Source of the DNA: a virus
IMG/VR virus record: IMGVR_UViG_3300023243_000606
Location: 1-23,164 of that record
Strand: one strand, 5' to 3'
DNA length: 23,164 bases
The first letter of the stretch is position 1. Each line of letters begins with the position of its first letter. Positions 1,505 through 8,179 of the stretch are shown in pieces. A program made the position numbers and the translations under genes. The notes under the pieces are model-generated. The model was not told the DNA's origin. It saw nothing but the letters and a program-made list of their open reading frames with translations, and did no database searches.

Positions 1505-1945
1505 CTATTCACCATAATACGCTGCATTTTTTCCGTGTTCCATAAATTTAACCTTAGTTACTCTAACTCTACCATTAGTCTCTTCTAATACGAAGGGGTT
1601 AACCTTATTAAAAATGAATTCAGCAAATTTCTCAGCTCCTGTAGCTTCAATAACTCTTAACTGGATTACACCTAAATCATTCATTGTTTTCCAACCACCC
1701 ATTCCAGGATCATCTTCAGCAACAATAACTGTGTGGTCAAATATATAATCCATCCACTCCTTGGGTTGTTTACCATCAATTAAGGTTTTAGCACGTTTAG
1801 CCATCCCAAAATCCATAACCCAATTTTTTTCATCTAATTCCCCTTCAAAATATATTTTGAATGAAATGCCGTAGCCATGTAGGAATCTACGGTCAGCAAT
1901 GGGTTCCCTCGGCTCGCCATTGGCGAAAAACCGTGGAGAACCCAT
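1505..1945 (-). CDS. queD: QueD-like 6-carboxy-tetrahydropterin synthase, body of a frame-split gene
   Basis: QueD makes 6-carboxy-5,6,7,8-tetrahydropterin from dihydroneopterin triphosphate, feeding QueE. In this 146-codon frame I see LHGYG (22-26, matching LHGH), a strand ending FEGELD, VMDFG (43-47), the catalytic-pair DH (70-71) followed by AEDDPGM, ATGAEKFAEF (101-110, the PTxEnxA helix) and MEHGKNAAYY (135-144, the ETxxxAxY end). However, the first 20 residues from the ATG at 1945 do not resemble the family. The expected N-terminus, including the cysteine before LHGY, is in another frame (1976-1893). The natural protein is therefore probably 1976-1505, joined by a +1 shift near 1895. 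Without that, the product lacks the first strand and the catalytic cysteine. Either the gene is broken, the sequence has an error, or the frame change is used. Confidence 0.85.
   Translation of the reverse strand: MGSPRFFANGEPREPIADRRFLHGYGISFKIYFEGELDEKNWVMDFGMAKRAKTLIDGKQPKEWMDYIFDHTVIVAEDDPGMGGWKTMNDLGVIQLRVIEATGAEKFAEFIFNKVNPFVLEETNGRVRVTKVKFMEHGKNAAYYGE
1869..1892 (-). promoter_or_regulatory. Inverted repeat directly after the queD TGA codon
   Basis: CCGTAG (1892-1887) and CTACGG (1874-1869) are perfect complements with a 12-base loop, and the repeat begins at the base after the in-frame TGA. It could act as a structure that helps recoding, or it could mark a hairpin-driven mutation that broke the frame. 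A shorter GTAG-ATTC-CTAC stem is nested at the same place. Confidence 0.4.
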
Positions 1946-1976
1946 CGTATACTTTACTTGATTGAAATTTATTCAT
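1893..1976 (-). CDS. queD: N-terminal segment of queD in another frame, ends TGC TGA C
   Basis: A 27-codon frame from ATG 1976-1974 to TGA 1895-1893. Its product contains YDGFSTVFRQWRAEGTHC. This fits the N-terminus of the QueD-like family (first strand, FS..F/H motif, and a cysteine shortly before LHGY), whereas the overlapping start at 1945 gives an unrelated MGSPRFF sequence. A +1 step at TGC TGA C would read GAC and enter the queD body at residue D18, giving THC-DR-RFLHGYG. Skipping the seven bases 1895-1889 would give the tighter THC-RFLHGY. The family match is from memory and should be tested by alignment. Confidence 0.65.
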   Translation of the reverse strand: MNKFQSSKVYDGFSTVFRQWRAEGTHC

Positions 1977-2489: not shown

Positions 2490-2518
2490 AATGTACGAAT
2501 TATTTGTTGTTTACCCAA
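2490..2518 (-). promoter_or_regulatory. Promoter P2 (TTGG-N15-TTCGTACATT)
   Basis: TTGG is at 2518-2515, with 15 bases to TTCGTACATT at 2499-2490. It lies 17 bases upstream of the 55-aa gene and would drive that gene, thioredoxin, queD and queE. The -35 overlaps the end of the HNH remnant. Confidence 0.75.
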
Positions 2519-2607
2519 GTGTGTTTTTCCTGGTGATGTAAATCTCTATGACAATTTGAACATATAGGTATACATTTTTTTAATTCTTCTCTATATGATT
2601 CAAGTGT
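2500..2607 (-). pseudogene. C-terminal remnant of an HNH endonuclease
   Basis: An open stretch with no good start reads LKKCIPICSNCHRDLHHQEK and on to HTWVNNK before the TAA at 2502-2500. CxxCH followed by a histidine pair is the typical C-terminal zinc/HNH motif of phage HNH homing endonucleases (CsNCHRxxH). The frame overlaps the 3' end of queC and is closed upstream by a TGA inside queC, so the N-terminal part of the nuclease is gone. It reads as the scar of a former intergenic HNH gene. Confidence 0.6.
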
Positions 2608-5521: not shown

Positions 5522-5887
5522 TTATACTTTAGTTAATTTATATTTAACACCATCAATCTCTACAACCTTACCTTCACAGGTTTTAGTTCTACTATTAAAT
5601 TCTTCTTCGGTTAAATTGACACCATTAATATAGTAAGCTTTATATCCATTTTTATATTCAATAGCAGGACCATCTTCTCTATGAAGTTTACCATTAATGT
5701 AGAAATATTTATCTCCGTTTGCAAGCTCTACAGCAGGTCCATCTTCTCTATGAAATTTACCATTAAGGTAGTAATATTTATCTCCACCTTTATACTCTAT
5801 AGCAGGTCCATCTTCCCTATGAAGTTTACCTTCTAAGTTGTACCATCTTGTAATATCTTCTATTACTATTACTTCATATTCTGTCAT
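5522..5887 (-). CDS. HREDGPA-repeat protein, 3 repeats, 121 aa
   Basis: The protein has an exact three-part build: an N-terminal cap of 22 residues (MTEYEVIVIEDITRWYNLEG), three 23-residue repeats (residues 23-91) of the form HREDGPAxExxxGDKYYYxNGKx, and a C-terminal cap of 30 residues beginning LTEEEFN and ending GVKYKLTKV. The repeats alternate a charged turn with an aromatic strand and resemble MORN/YwqK-type beta repeats, though I cannot name the family with certainty. It is soluble, without a signal peptide. The same caps enclose nine repeats in the gene at 6278-7054 and one in the gene at 7060-7287. It is the last gene of the array, five bases after the 126-aa gene. Function is unknown. 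Confidence 0.85.
   Translation of the reverse strand: MTEYEVIVIEDITRWYNLEGKLHREDGPAIEYKGGDKYYYLNGKFHREDGPAVELANGDKYFYINGKLHREDGPAIEYKNGYKAYYINGVNLTEEEFNSRTKTCEGKVVEIDGVKYKLTKV
5615..5821 (-). repeat. Three tandem 69-bp coding repeats
   Basis: Three 69-bp units, each coding one 23-residue HREDGPA repeat, inside the 121-aa gene. They are related to the nine units at 6371-6988 and the single unit at 7153-7221. Confidence 0.85.
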
Positions 5888-5892
5888 AATCT

Positions 5893-6273
5893 CTATTTTA
5901 TTTTATTATTTTGAAATATATTGATTTTCACTTTTTTGTTTAAAATTAAATCCTGTACCATAGACGATTCTTTGTAGTTTTTACAATCCGTTACATCTAC
6001 ATTAATATGTATTCCTAACTCCTTTAATTGTTCAGGTGTTAATGGTCTTACGAGTGAGGGTTGATGTGGTTTAGGGTATTCTCTTTTTAGTGGATCTTTC
6101 TTAAAAAAATATCCTGTTGTATCCACATAACGGAGAAGTTCTTTATCTCCCTCTATGGTGATATTTCCTGATTTTGCTTTAAGCATTACAATCTTAAATC
6201 CTAATTTGTTTGTAAGCCATTTAATAAATACTATATGTATTTTATGCATAACTTTTACTTTGTATTCTTTCAT
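5893..6273 (-). CDS. Hypothetical protein in the repeat-gene array, 126 aa
   Basis: I do not recognise this protein. It starts MKEYKVKVMHKIHIVF, and the first eight residues match the start of its neighbours (MKEYKVIV, MIEYKVKV), but the HREDGPA repeats and the 30-residue cap are missing. Instead there is a short basic helical segment, a strand pair (KAKSGNITIEGDKELLRYVDTTGYFF), a proline-rich stretch (YPKPHQPSLVRPLTPEQLKELGIHINVDV) and a polar C-terminus. It lies four and five bases from the repeat genes on either side, so all are on one transcript. The shared start suggests that this gene arose by replacing the body of a repeat gene, or that an old 5' end was reused. Confidence 0.7.
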   Translation of the reverse strand: MKEYKVKVMHKIHIVFIKWLTNKLGFKIVMLKAKSGNITIEGDKELLRYVDTTGYFFKKDPLKREYPKPHQPSLVRPLTPEQLKELGIHINVDVTDCKNYKESSMVQDLILNKKVKINIFQNNKIK

Positions 6274-6277
6274 AACT

Positions 6278-7054
6278 CTATACCTTAGATAGTTTATATT
6301 TAACTCCTTCTATATCTACAATCTTACCTTCACAGGCTTTAGTTCTATTATTGAATTCTTCTTCGGTTAATTCCTTACCCTTAATGTAGTAATATTTATT
6401 CCCATCTGTATATTCAATAGCAGGCCCATCTTCTCTATGACGTTTATCATTAATATAGTAAGATTTATATCCATTTGTATACTCCACAGCAGGCCCATCT
6501 TCTCTATGGAATTTACCCTTAATGTAATACCATTTATCTCCATTTGCATTCTCAACAGCAGGACCATCTTCTCTATGGAATTTACCTTTAATGTAATAAT
6601 AATTATCTCCATTTGCATATTCAATAGCGGGCCCGGCTTCTCTATGAAGTTTACCCTTAATGTAGTAAGCTTTATATCCATTTTCCCTCTCAATAGCTGG
6701 ACCATCTTCTCTGTGACATTTACCGTTAATGTAGTAAGCTTTATTTCCATCTGCATATTCAATAGCAGGCCCATCTTCTCTATGACATTTGCCATTAATG
6801 TAATACCATTTATCTCCATTGTTATATTTTATAGCTGGACCATCTTCTCTATGAAGTTCATCATTAATGTAGTAAAATTTATCACCATCGGCAAATACGG
6901 CTGGACCATCCTCTCTATGTCTTTTACCGTTAATGTAGTAAACTTTATCTCCATTTGCATTCTCAACAGCAGGACCATCTTCTCTATGTAACTGGTCTTT
7001 TGAATTAAACCATGTTGTACTATTTTCTGTTACTATTACTTTGTATTCTTTCAT
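6278..7054 (-). CDS. HREDGPA-repeat protein, 9 repeats, 258 aa
   Basis: Residues 1-22 form the N-terminal cap (MKEYKVIVTENSTTWFN...), 23-228 are nine tandem repeats of the HREDGPAxExxNGDKxYYIxGKx type (eight of 23 residues and one of 22, whose second repeat reads HREDGPAVFADGDK), and 229-258 are the C-terminal cap (LTEEEFNNRTKACEGK through KYKLSKV). One repeat reads HREAGPA. The fold is probably an elongated beta solenoid or MORN-like ladder. It is cytoplasmic as far as can be seen: no signal peptide and no membrane segment. The tandem DNA also opens long spurious frames on both strands. Repeat number differs sharply from the sister genes, as expected from slippage or unequal recombination. 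Function is unknown. Confidence 0.88.
   Translation of the reverse strand: MKEYKVIVTENSTTWFNSKDQLHREDGPAVENANGDKVYYINGKRHREDGPAVFADGDKFYYINDELHREDGPAIKYNNGDKWYYINGKCHREDGPAIEYADGNKAYYINGKCHREDGPAIERENGYKAYYIKGKLHREAGPAIEYANGDNYYYIKGKFHREDGPAVENANGDKWYYIKGKFHREDGPAVEYTNGYKSYYINDKRHREDGPAIEYTDGNKYYYIKGKELTEEEFNNRTKACEGKIVDIEGVKYKLSKV
6371..6988 (-). repeat. Nine tandem 69-bp coding repeats
   Basis: Nine near-identical 69-bp units (one of 66 bp) encode the HREDGPA repeats of the 258-aa protein. Most differences between units fall in the variable xExxNGxK positions, and the HREDGPA codons are almost constant. Confidence 0.9.
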
Positions 7055-7059
7055 AATTT

Positions 7060-7287
7060 TTATACTTTAGATAATTTATACTTCACACCTTCAATCTCTA
7101 CAATCTTACCTTCGCAAGTTTTAGTCCTATTATTAAATTCTTCTTCGGTTAAGTTTCTACCCTTAATATAGTAAGATTTATATCCATTTGTATACTCCAC
7201 AGCAGGACCATCTTCTCTATGAAGTTTACCTTCTAAGTTGAACCATGTTGTACTATTTTCTGTAACCTTTACTTTATATTCTATCAT
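7060..7287 (-). CDS. HREDGPA-repeat protein, 1 repeat, 75 aa
   Basis: This is the minimal form of the family: a cap of 22 residues (MIEYKVKVTENSTTWFNLEG...), one repeat (23-45, HREDGPAVEYTNGYKSYYIK) and a cap of 30 residues (46-75, LTEEEFNNRTKTCEGK through KYKLSKV). It is the first gene of the array after promoter P4, with an AAAGGTTATG start context shared with the ligase and 112-aa genes. It could be a contracted copy or the ancestral unit from which the larger ones expanded. Function is unknown, but the exact cap lengths show that it is an intact gene and not a fragment. Confidence 0.82.
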   Translation of the reverse strand: MIEYKVKVTENSTTWFNLEGKLHREDGPAVEYTNGYKSYYIKGRNLTEEEFNNRTKTCEGKIVEIEGVKYKLSKV

Positions 7288-7381: not shown

Positions 7382-8179
7382 TTAAAGGTTGTTTATTTTT
7401 CTAAATTTCTTTACATTATAACTAACCATATTGTAATCAAGCTCACCATATTCCATATCAAAATGGTCGTTCATATTAGCTTTTGGTTTGGAATTTAAAC
7501 CGTGTTCTTTATATTTAATTCCTTCTAGGGCCGCCATTACTGGGTTTGAAGTATCAATTGATTCAATTTGGGGGTGGTTATCATACCAACCAAATTCTGA
7601 TGGGATGGTACATCCTAATAAATGTAATTTCAAACCTTTTAAATGTTTAAGTTGGAGTAAATCCTGTACAAACCGTACTCTACCTAATGCCTTCCCCATG
7701 TCCACGTTACTATGTGGGAAGAAATCATTATACCAAGTAGCACCGTAAGATACACATAATTTGTTATAACCTAAACCATATAATAAATCAGCACATAAGT
7801 ACGCTTCGTGTTCATTATGTCCTTGAATTACTGTTATTGGTTTTGTGTTTGTGGGGTATGGATACTGTTTCCAATATTTAGCTTGTGCTACGGTTTTGGG
7901 GCAATCCATCCAAACATCAGGTACTATGAATTCATTAGGTTCTAATTCGTTAATCCAATATCTTAAACGATCATGGTTATAACCATGTCCCCCATTTATA
8001 TCTTTTAATTCATGTAGGGAGTTGTCCATAACAATATAGCGTCCTTGTTCCTTTGCCCATTTAAAATAGGACAAATAATCTTTATCTTGATCTAATAAGT
8101 GAGGTAAGCAAAAATCATACTCATTAAATTCAGGTGATACCTTTAACAAGCATCTAGGTACTTCATGGTTTACAATCAT
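7382..8179 (-). CDS. dpdA: DpdA-like TGT-family protein, likely 7-deazaguanine DNA transglycosylase, 265 aa
   Basis: A homologue of tRNA-guanine transglycosylase. In phages, DpdA exchanges guanine in DNA for a 7-deazaguanine base such as preQ0. Motifs follow the TGT barrel in order: YIVMDNSLHEL (48-58, the strand with the catalytic-type Asp D52), FIVPDVWMDCP (84-94), ITVIQGHNEHE (115-125), LHLLGCTIP (185-193) and ESIDTSNP (206-213, with the nucleophile-type Asp D209). It is shorter than bacterial TGT (about 370 residues), and I see no CxCxxC...H zinc site. QueD, QueE and QueC in the same window support a base-modification role over a tRNA role. It has its own weaker promoter (8201-8230). An archaeosine-type or tRNA-directed activity is the main alternative. 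Confidence 0.85.
   Translation of the reverse strand: MIVNHEVPRCLLKVSPEFNEYDFCLPHLLDQDKDYLSYFKWAKEQGRYIVMDNSLHELKDINGGHGYNHDRLRYWINELEPNEFIVPDVWMDCPKTVAQAKYWKQYPYPTNTKPITVIQGHNEHEAYLCADLLYGLGYNKLCVSYGATWYNDFFPHSNVDMGKALGRVRFVQDLLQLKHLKGLKLHLLGCTIPSEFGWYDNHPQIESIDTSNPVMAALEGIKYKEHGLNSKPKANMNDHFDMEYGELDYNMVSYNVKKFRKINNL

Follow-up and report, generated by a model that had tools for sequence, protein, structure and literature searches.

A conserved 5′ hairpin in split phage queD genes: a candidate recoding cassette resembling that of T4 gene 60

The DNA analysed here, referred to throughout as the window, is an IMG/VR virus record of 23,164 bases that carries on its minus strand a queD gene in two pieces, with the N-terminus of the enzyme in one reading frame and its body in another. 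The QueD pathway supplies phages with preQ0 for DNA protection (PMC6884629), and the question raised by this locus is whether one enzyme is still produced from the two pieces and, if so, how the ribosome passes from the first frame to the second.

The split gene and its relatives

The N-terminal frame (1976–1893, minus strand) comprises 27 codons, from an ATG at 1976–1974 to a TGC at 1898–1896 (the proposed take-off codon), followed by a TGA stop codon at 1895–1893; it translates as MNKFQSSKVYDGFSTVFRQWRAEGTHC (MNKFQ...GTHC). The QueD body (PF01242, phrog_2389), which is under purifying selection, lies in the +1 frame relative to the N-terminal frame and runs from a proposed resume codon, AGA (1888–1886), to its own stop (1888–1505, minus strand). 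Between them, seven extra bases, TGACCGT (1895–1889, minus strand), make up the stop codon and the proposed gap, with CGT (1891–1889) as the proposed landing codon. Searches of viral contigs returned around 160 intact queD genes that share the same N-terminus, lack these bases and read THC-[R/K/S/Q]F-LHGY unbroken; the spacing from Cys to HGY is exactly three residues in all 121 distinct intact sequences. The initial annotation had described a queD gene split over two frames, with a family-like N-terminus on the second frame and a 7-base insertion in the THC-RFLHGY junction, and translation and comparison with the intact relatives bear it out on each of these points.

The minus-strand neighbours of the gene are queC (3449–2580), a thioredoxin-like gene (2285–2025) and queE (1463–675), queD lying between the last two. 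Among isolated phages, ribonucleotide reductase places the window nearest to the Flavobacterium immuto phages, at 74% identity. Elsewhere on the minus strand, three adjacent ORFs (5522–7287) are built of repeats like LHREDGPAVEYANGDKYYYINGK, and 7382–8179 encodes a phrog_19058 protein of unassigned function, which might insert deazaguanine in the manner of DpdA/TGT; by visual comparison, similar proteins are encoded near the split queD in two other contigs (L082 and L089).

Nine further IMG/VR contigs have a queD gene split at the same codon as the window. The nearest split relative (L001/L086) has the same break with the insert TGATAGT, and the other eight were retrieved with a pattern (FRQ..A..THC followed by a stop) that did not require the hairpin described below. 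Seven of these (L082, L087, L088, L089, L092, L095 and L098) read TGT TAG C and one (L096) reads TGT TAA G, so that among the ten genes the insert measures 4, 5 or 7 nt and the stop is TGA, TAG or TAA. The TAG-type insert has the same sequence in all seven and may derive from one event; hence the insert types number only four. Unusual substitutions are present in the body of L096. The body of L095 is broken again at TTTTTTAAA, a T6A3 run around 150–170 nt after the first break, with the C-terminal part in another frame, which may reflect slippage, decay or an assembly error. Among bacterial genomes, 15 matches to the pattern were found and none was QueD. QueD occurs in 105 records of isolated phages, and in the five that were opened queD is annotated as one uninterrupted gene each. 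A search of the literature on queD frameshifting found nothing relevant.

In 45 pairs of split genes, the 376 differences in the 51 nt before the break cause 92 residue changes in the N-terminal frame versus 287 in the +1 frame, and they are dominated by the third codon position (60/74/242). The median pN/pS before the break is 0.13 in the N-terminal frame versus 1.5 in the +1 frame, and the bodies of sampled split pairs give values of 0.11–0.40. Since purifying selection acts on the N-terminal frame and the body and not on the +1 frame upstream of the break, the two parts appear to be retained as one enzyme. In profile searches the joined protein matches PF01242 and phrog_2389, and the structure modelled for the +1-joined form (pLDDT 84, pTM 0.82) matches QueD and PTPS structures, such that the joined product would belong to the QueD family (COG0720/PTPS) by profile and by predicted fold.

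A conserved hairpin upstream of the break

In all ten split genes a hairpin lies directly 5′ of the break, its stem ending at the G of the Cys codon. In the window it spans 1947–1897 (minus strand), with arms at 1947–1930 and 1913–1897, and the TG of the take-off codon takes part in its final pairs. The minimum free energy of the 54 nt before the break is −25.4 to −31.1 kcal/mol in the ten split genes, compared with a mean of −9.9 kcal/mol (s.d. 3.0, n = 117) for the same 54 nt in intact genes, only two of which are at −20 or lower. Of 1000 synonymous recodings per gene, none was as stable as the native sequence in any of the ten (z = −4.8 to −7.4). Compensatory changes occur at three pairs of the hairpin (AU/UA, CG/UA and AU/GC), pairing is present in 96% of alignment cells versus 34–56% after the partner has been shifted by one, two or three columns, and none of 500 shuffles reaches the covariation score. 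A covariance model assigns 75–100 bits to the split genes and at most 63 bits to intact ones.

Covariance searches gave good hairpin matches only at queD and none elsewhere, and the 20-base core, sought as a repeat in the viral collection, matched only L086. Two other identities were considered for this element and rejected: a sequence repeated elsewhere, to which these results run counter, and an intrinsic terminator, none being called around the break. A gene-agnostic hairpin pattern gave just four extra hits, three by chance and one in an intact queD. Neither a conserved 3′ structure nor a special nascent peptide was seen, the N-terminal peptide being the family's ordinary one.

This hairpin was missed in the initial annotation, which had looked for the cause of the split in a prfB-like TGC TGA C signal and in a downstream 6-bp inverted repeat with a 12-base loop. 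The repeat does exist (CCGTAG..CTACGG, 1892–1869, minus strand) but is probably incidental, because it is unconserved in the nearest split relative, where ATAGTC is found. The TGC TGA C signal fares no better, as the other split genes read TGC TGA T, TGT TAG C or TGT TAA G. The proposed cause is therefore unsupported; the conserved element is the much stronger hairpin directly upstream of the stop. With it, two features expected of programmed recoding are found at this site, namely a break shared by independent genomes while selection acts on the two parts, and a conserved stimulatory element (10/10). The sequence comparisons suggest that the shared hairpin before the stop probably pushes the ribosome past it.

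How the two frames may be joined

We favour, with a probability of roughly 60%, the interpretation that these phage queD genes contain a recoding cassette of the T4 gene 60 kind, in which the ribosome slides over the stop codon. The ribosome would read the 27-codon N-terminal part, unwinding the 5′ hairpin, until the Cys codon (UGY) occupied the P site and the stop codon the A site. By then the hairpin's apical part would already be outside and could refold behind the ribosome. The peptidyl-tRNA-Cys would then let go, and zipping of the rest of the stem, including the last pairs that contain the UG of the take-off codon, would pull the mRNA into a forward slide over the stop, by 7 nt in the window and by 4 or 5 nt in its relatives. 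The landing site of the tRNA would be an NGY codon, two of whose three positions match, and translation would restart at an Arg or Lys codon, yielding a product (THC-RFLHGY) with the length and spacing of intact QueD.

A slide that restores C-x3-HGY with Arg or Lys after the Cys is available in all ten genes (7 nt in the window and L086, 4 nt in the TAG group and 5 nt in L096) and would always bring CGT, AGT or AGC into the P site. These NGY landing codons match the UGY take-off codon, read by tRNA-Cys, at the G and the pyrimidine in ten of ten cases. A short bypass is preferred to a +1 shift because the slide fits the family spacing, because this two-position match is universal among the split genes and because T4 gene 60 offers a motor model for it. 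Counting against a bypass is the match at only two of three positions, whereas the gene 60 codons are identical. The favoured interpretation is also weakened by the failure to find a special nascent peptide or conserved 3′ structure, by the possible single origin of the TAG-type inserts, by the HNH gene described below, which is missing beside queD in the window and accompanies an intact queD in L191, and by the second break in L095.

The main rival is a plain programmed +1 frameshift at the UGY–stop pair, stimulated by the same 5′ hairpin, in which the peptidyl-tRNA would not re-pair, the A site would take GAC, GAT or AGC and one or two extra residues would be placed between Cys and HGY (THC-DRRFLHGY in the window). 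This is the smallest step and opens nine of the ten split genes, a 5′ stem-loop has been reported as a +1 stimulator in synthetic constructs (PMC5009743) and structure prediction gives the +1-joined protein a QueD fold. It fails, however, in L096, which needs +2 or +5; it alters the Cys–HGY spacing that is fixed in the intact sequences; and, by base-pairing rules, a move from UGY to GUU or GCU would allow almost no re-pairing. We regard the +1 shift as possible but rather doubtful. The programmed recoding envisaged in the initial annotation is thus supported by the conserved break, the hairpin and the selection, but the step need not be +1.

The split genes might instead be nulls, in which the cassette has killed queD (e.g. 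in nuclease escape) and the two parts are remnants. Intact queD genes are indeed far more common, L096 has its unusual body substitutions and L095, with its second frame break, may be at least one split copy that is decaying. Nevertheless, purifying selection on both frames across deeply diverged copies, maintenance of the hairpin through compensatory changes and full-length bodies that reach the conserved C-terminus in seven of the eight copies uncut by a contig end make it improbable that the family as a whole is dead.

It is very unlikely that the body is made separately, through either a start at an ATG within the hairpin or re-initiation past the stop, with the N-terminal frame as a leader peptide. 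Each of the ten genes does have a +1-frame ATG where the hairpin begins (1945–1943 in the window, minus strand), and there is a stop with a GAGG-like stretch nearby. The +1 frame before the break is nevertheless unconserved, as its pN/pS shows, and does not join the body in L096, while the body frame near the stop has no ATG, GTG or TTG. The ORF that opens mechanically at ATG 1945 (MGSPRFF) would also begin too late to include the conserved first strand or the Cys, which aligns, albeit weakly, with the HKC of E. coli QueD, and it is unlikely to mark the true start of queD.

Finally, although the window is a single metagenomic contig, a sequencing or assembly error in it has a negligible probability given nine other contigs with different inserts at the same site; for the family such error is excluded because these contigs carry nine different sample numbers, and the shared break with selection on both frames likewise refutes the recent private mutation that had been proposed as an alternative.

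Spread of the split allele and comparison with known systems

A tree built from QueD bodies shows the split copies to be polyphyletic: seven changes are required, at least five of them forced by supported branches. The window groups with intact L002 and L003, and L086 with intact L025. From around −100 to +100 about the break, by contrast, the window is 88–100% identical to L086, and upstream of that the two are around 50% alike; further into the queD body the window matches L003 at 96–100%. By sequence, this pattern is a mosaic of the kind expected from gene conversion.

In L087, L092 and L095 the gene for a 224–226-residue HNH protein (PF13392, phrog_12324) ends around 80–100 nt before the break. 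Its HNH domain and its N-terminus, which is 61–64% identical to intron-type endonucleases of T4-like phages, identify it as a putative I-TevIII/HNH homing endonuclease. It is directly upstream of queD in three of the eight testable split loci versus none of 155 intact loci (Fisher p = 8 × 10−5). A scan of the viral collection added a single close relative, in L191, bringing the number to four; each lies directly upstream of a queD, which in L191 is divergent and intact. No such HNH gene lies beside queD in the window. Neither this link to a homing endonuclease nor the mosaic spread had been foreseen in the initial annotation.

A motif, TTYCAYGGATACGGTACTATTTATA, is conserved upstream of the HNH gene in L087, L092, L095 and L191 and resembles the queD site encoding FLHGYG. 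I-Tev operators resemble their homing sites. Taken as an operator copied from queD, the motif scores 13.4 of 20, above the 9.8 of shuffled motifs, but is rarely the best match in its own locus, so that such an origin is no more than suggestive. As a separate observation, just past the queC stop of the window (2503–2604, minus strand) another frame reads LESYREELKKCIPICSNCHRDLHHQEKHTWVNNK, an HNH-like C-terminus, with similar stretches in L125, L064, L124 and L105; it may be what is left of a further HNH nuclease, or it may mark a second break in the reading frame where queC ends.

Under the favoured bypass interpretation, the cassette would move between phage lineages by recombination, at least partly with the I-TevIII-like HNH homing endonuclease. 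By analogy with gene 60, its altered DNA would make queD immune to the nuclease, with recoding keeping the enzyme.

Intact phage QueD proteins (phrog_2389, PF01242), such as those of Flavobacterium phage immuto and Cellulophaga phage phiST, share with the split form the enzyme family, N-terminus, body and nearby queC and queE genes; in the split form, however, the reading frame is broken and recoding would be needed. The prfB (RF2) +1 frameshift is likewise a forward change of frame at a sense codon before a stop (PMC5009743). Unlike prfB, split queD has no conserved UGA-C, no CUU and no Shine–Dalgarno sequence at the prfB spacing, it possesses a hairpin and one of its forms needs another frame; a prfB-type frameshift, defined by CUU UGA C with an upstream Shine–Dalgarno sequence, was rejected. 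It would not be an RF2 sensor, because the stop type varies.

The closest parallel is T4 gene 60, whose bypass and homing-endonuclease neighbourhood were compared through published accounts (PMC5009743, PMC2988022, PMC11194080). In gene 60 a 5′ stem-loop is described as a 'motor' and a stop follows the take-off codon (PMC5009743, PMC11194080), and the arrangement is explained by homing-endonuclease insertion and protection from cleavage (PMC5009743). Split queD resembles it in having a stop right after the take-off codon (TGA, TAG or TAA in all ten), an upstream 5′ stem-loop that includes bases of the take-off codon, disjoint coding parts that are out of frame with one another, and an interrupted enzyme gene that is tied to a homing endonuclease and is present in some related phages and absent from others. 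The gap, however, is 4, 5 or 7 nt rather than 50, and the landing codon a two-position match rather than an identical codon. The one 5′ hairpin of split queD is concealed within synonymous codons, and neither the stimulatory nascent peptide, the 3′ structure nor the long noncoding gap of gene 60 was found. The enzyme is also QueD and not a topoisomerase, and the nuclease upstream of the split gene is of the I-TevIII-type HNH class.

To our knowledge, T4 gene 60 has so far been essentially the only phage gene to link efficient bypassing with a homing endonuclease. There is perhaps an even chance that the split queD genes represent a second family of such cassettes, with a hop of 4–7 nt, re-pairing of two codon positions out of three, one 5′ hairpin as the driver and selfish movement between phage queD genes. 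The rules of bypassing, as they concern the hairpin, the stop and the take-off and landing codons, could then be tested directly in ten diverse phages, which offer gaps of varying length, controls in the form of intact genes and compensatory mutations of natural origin. Such a family would point to mobile endonucleases as a force in shaping recoding signals, in genes that would otherwise probably be annotated as truncated.
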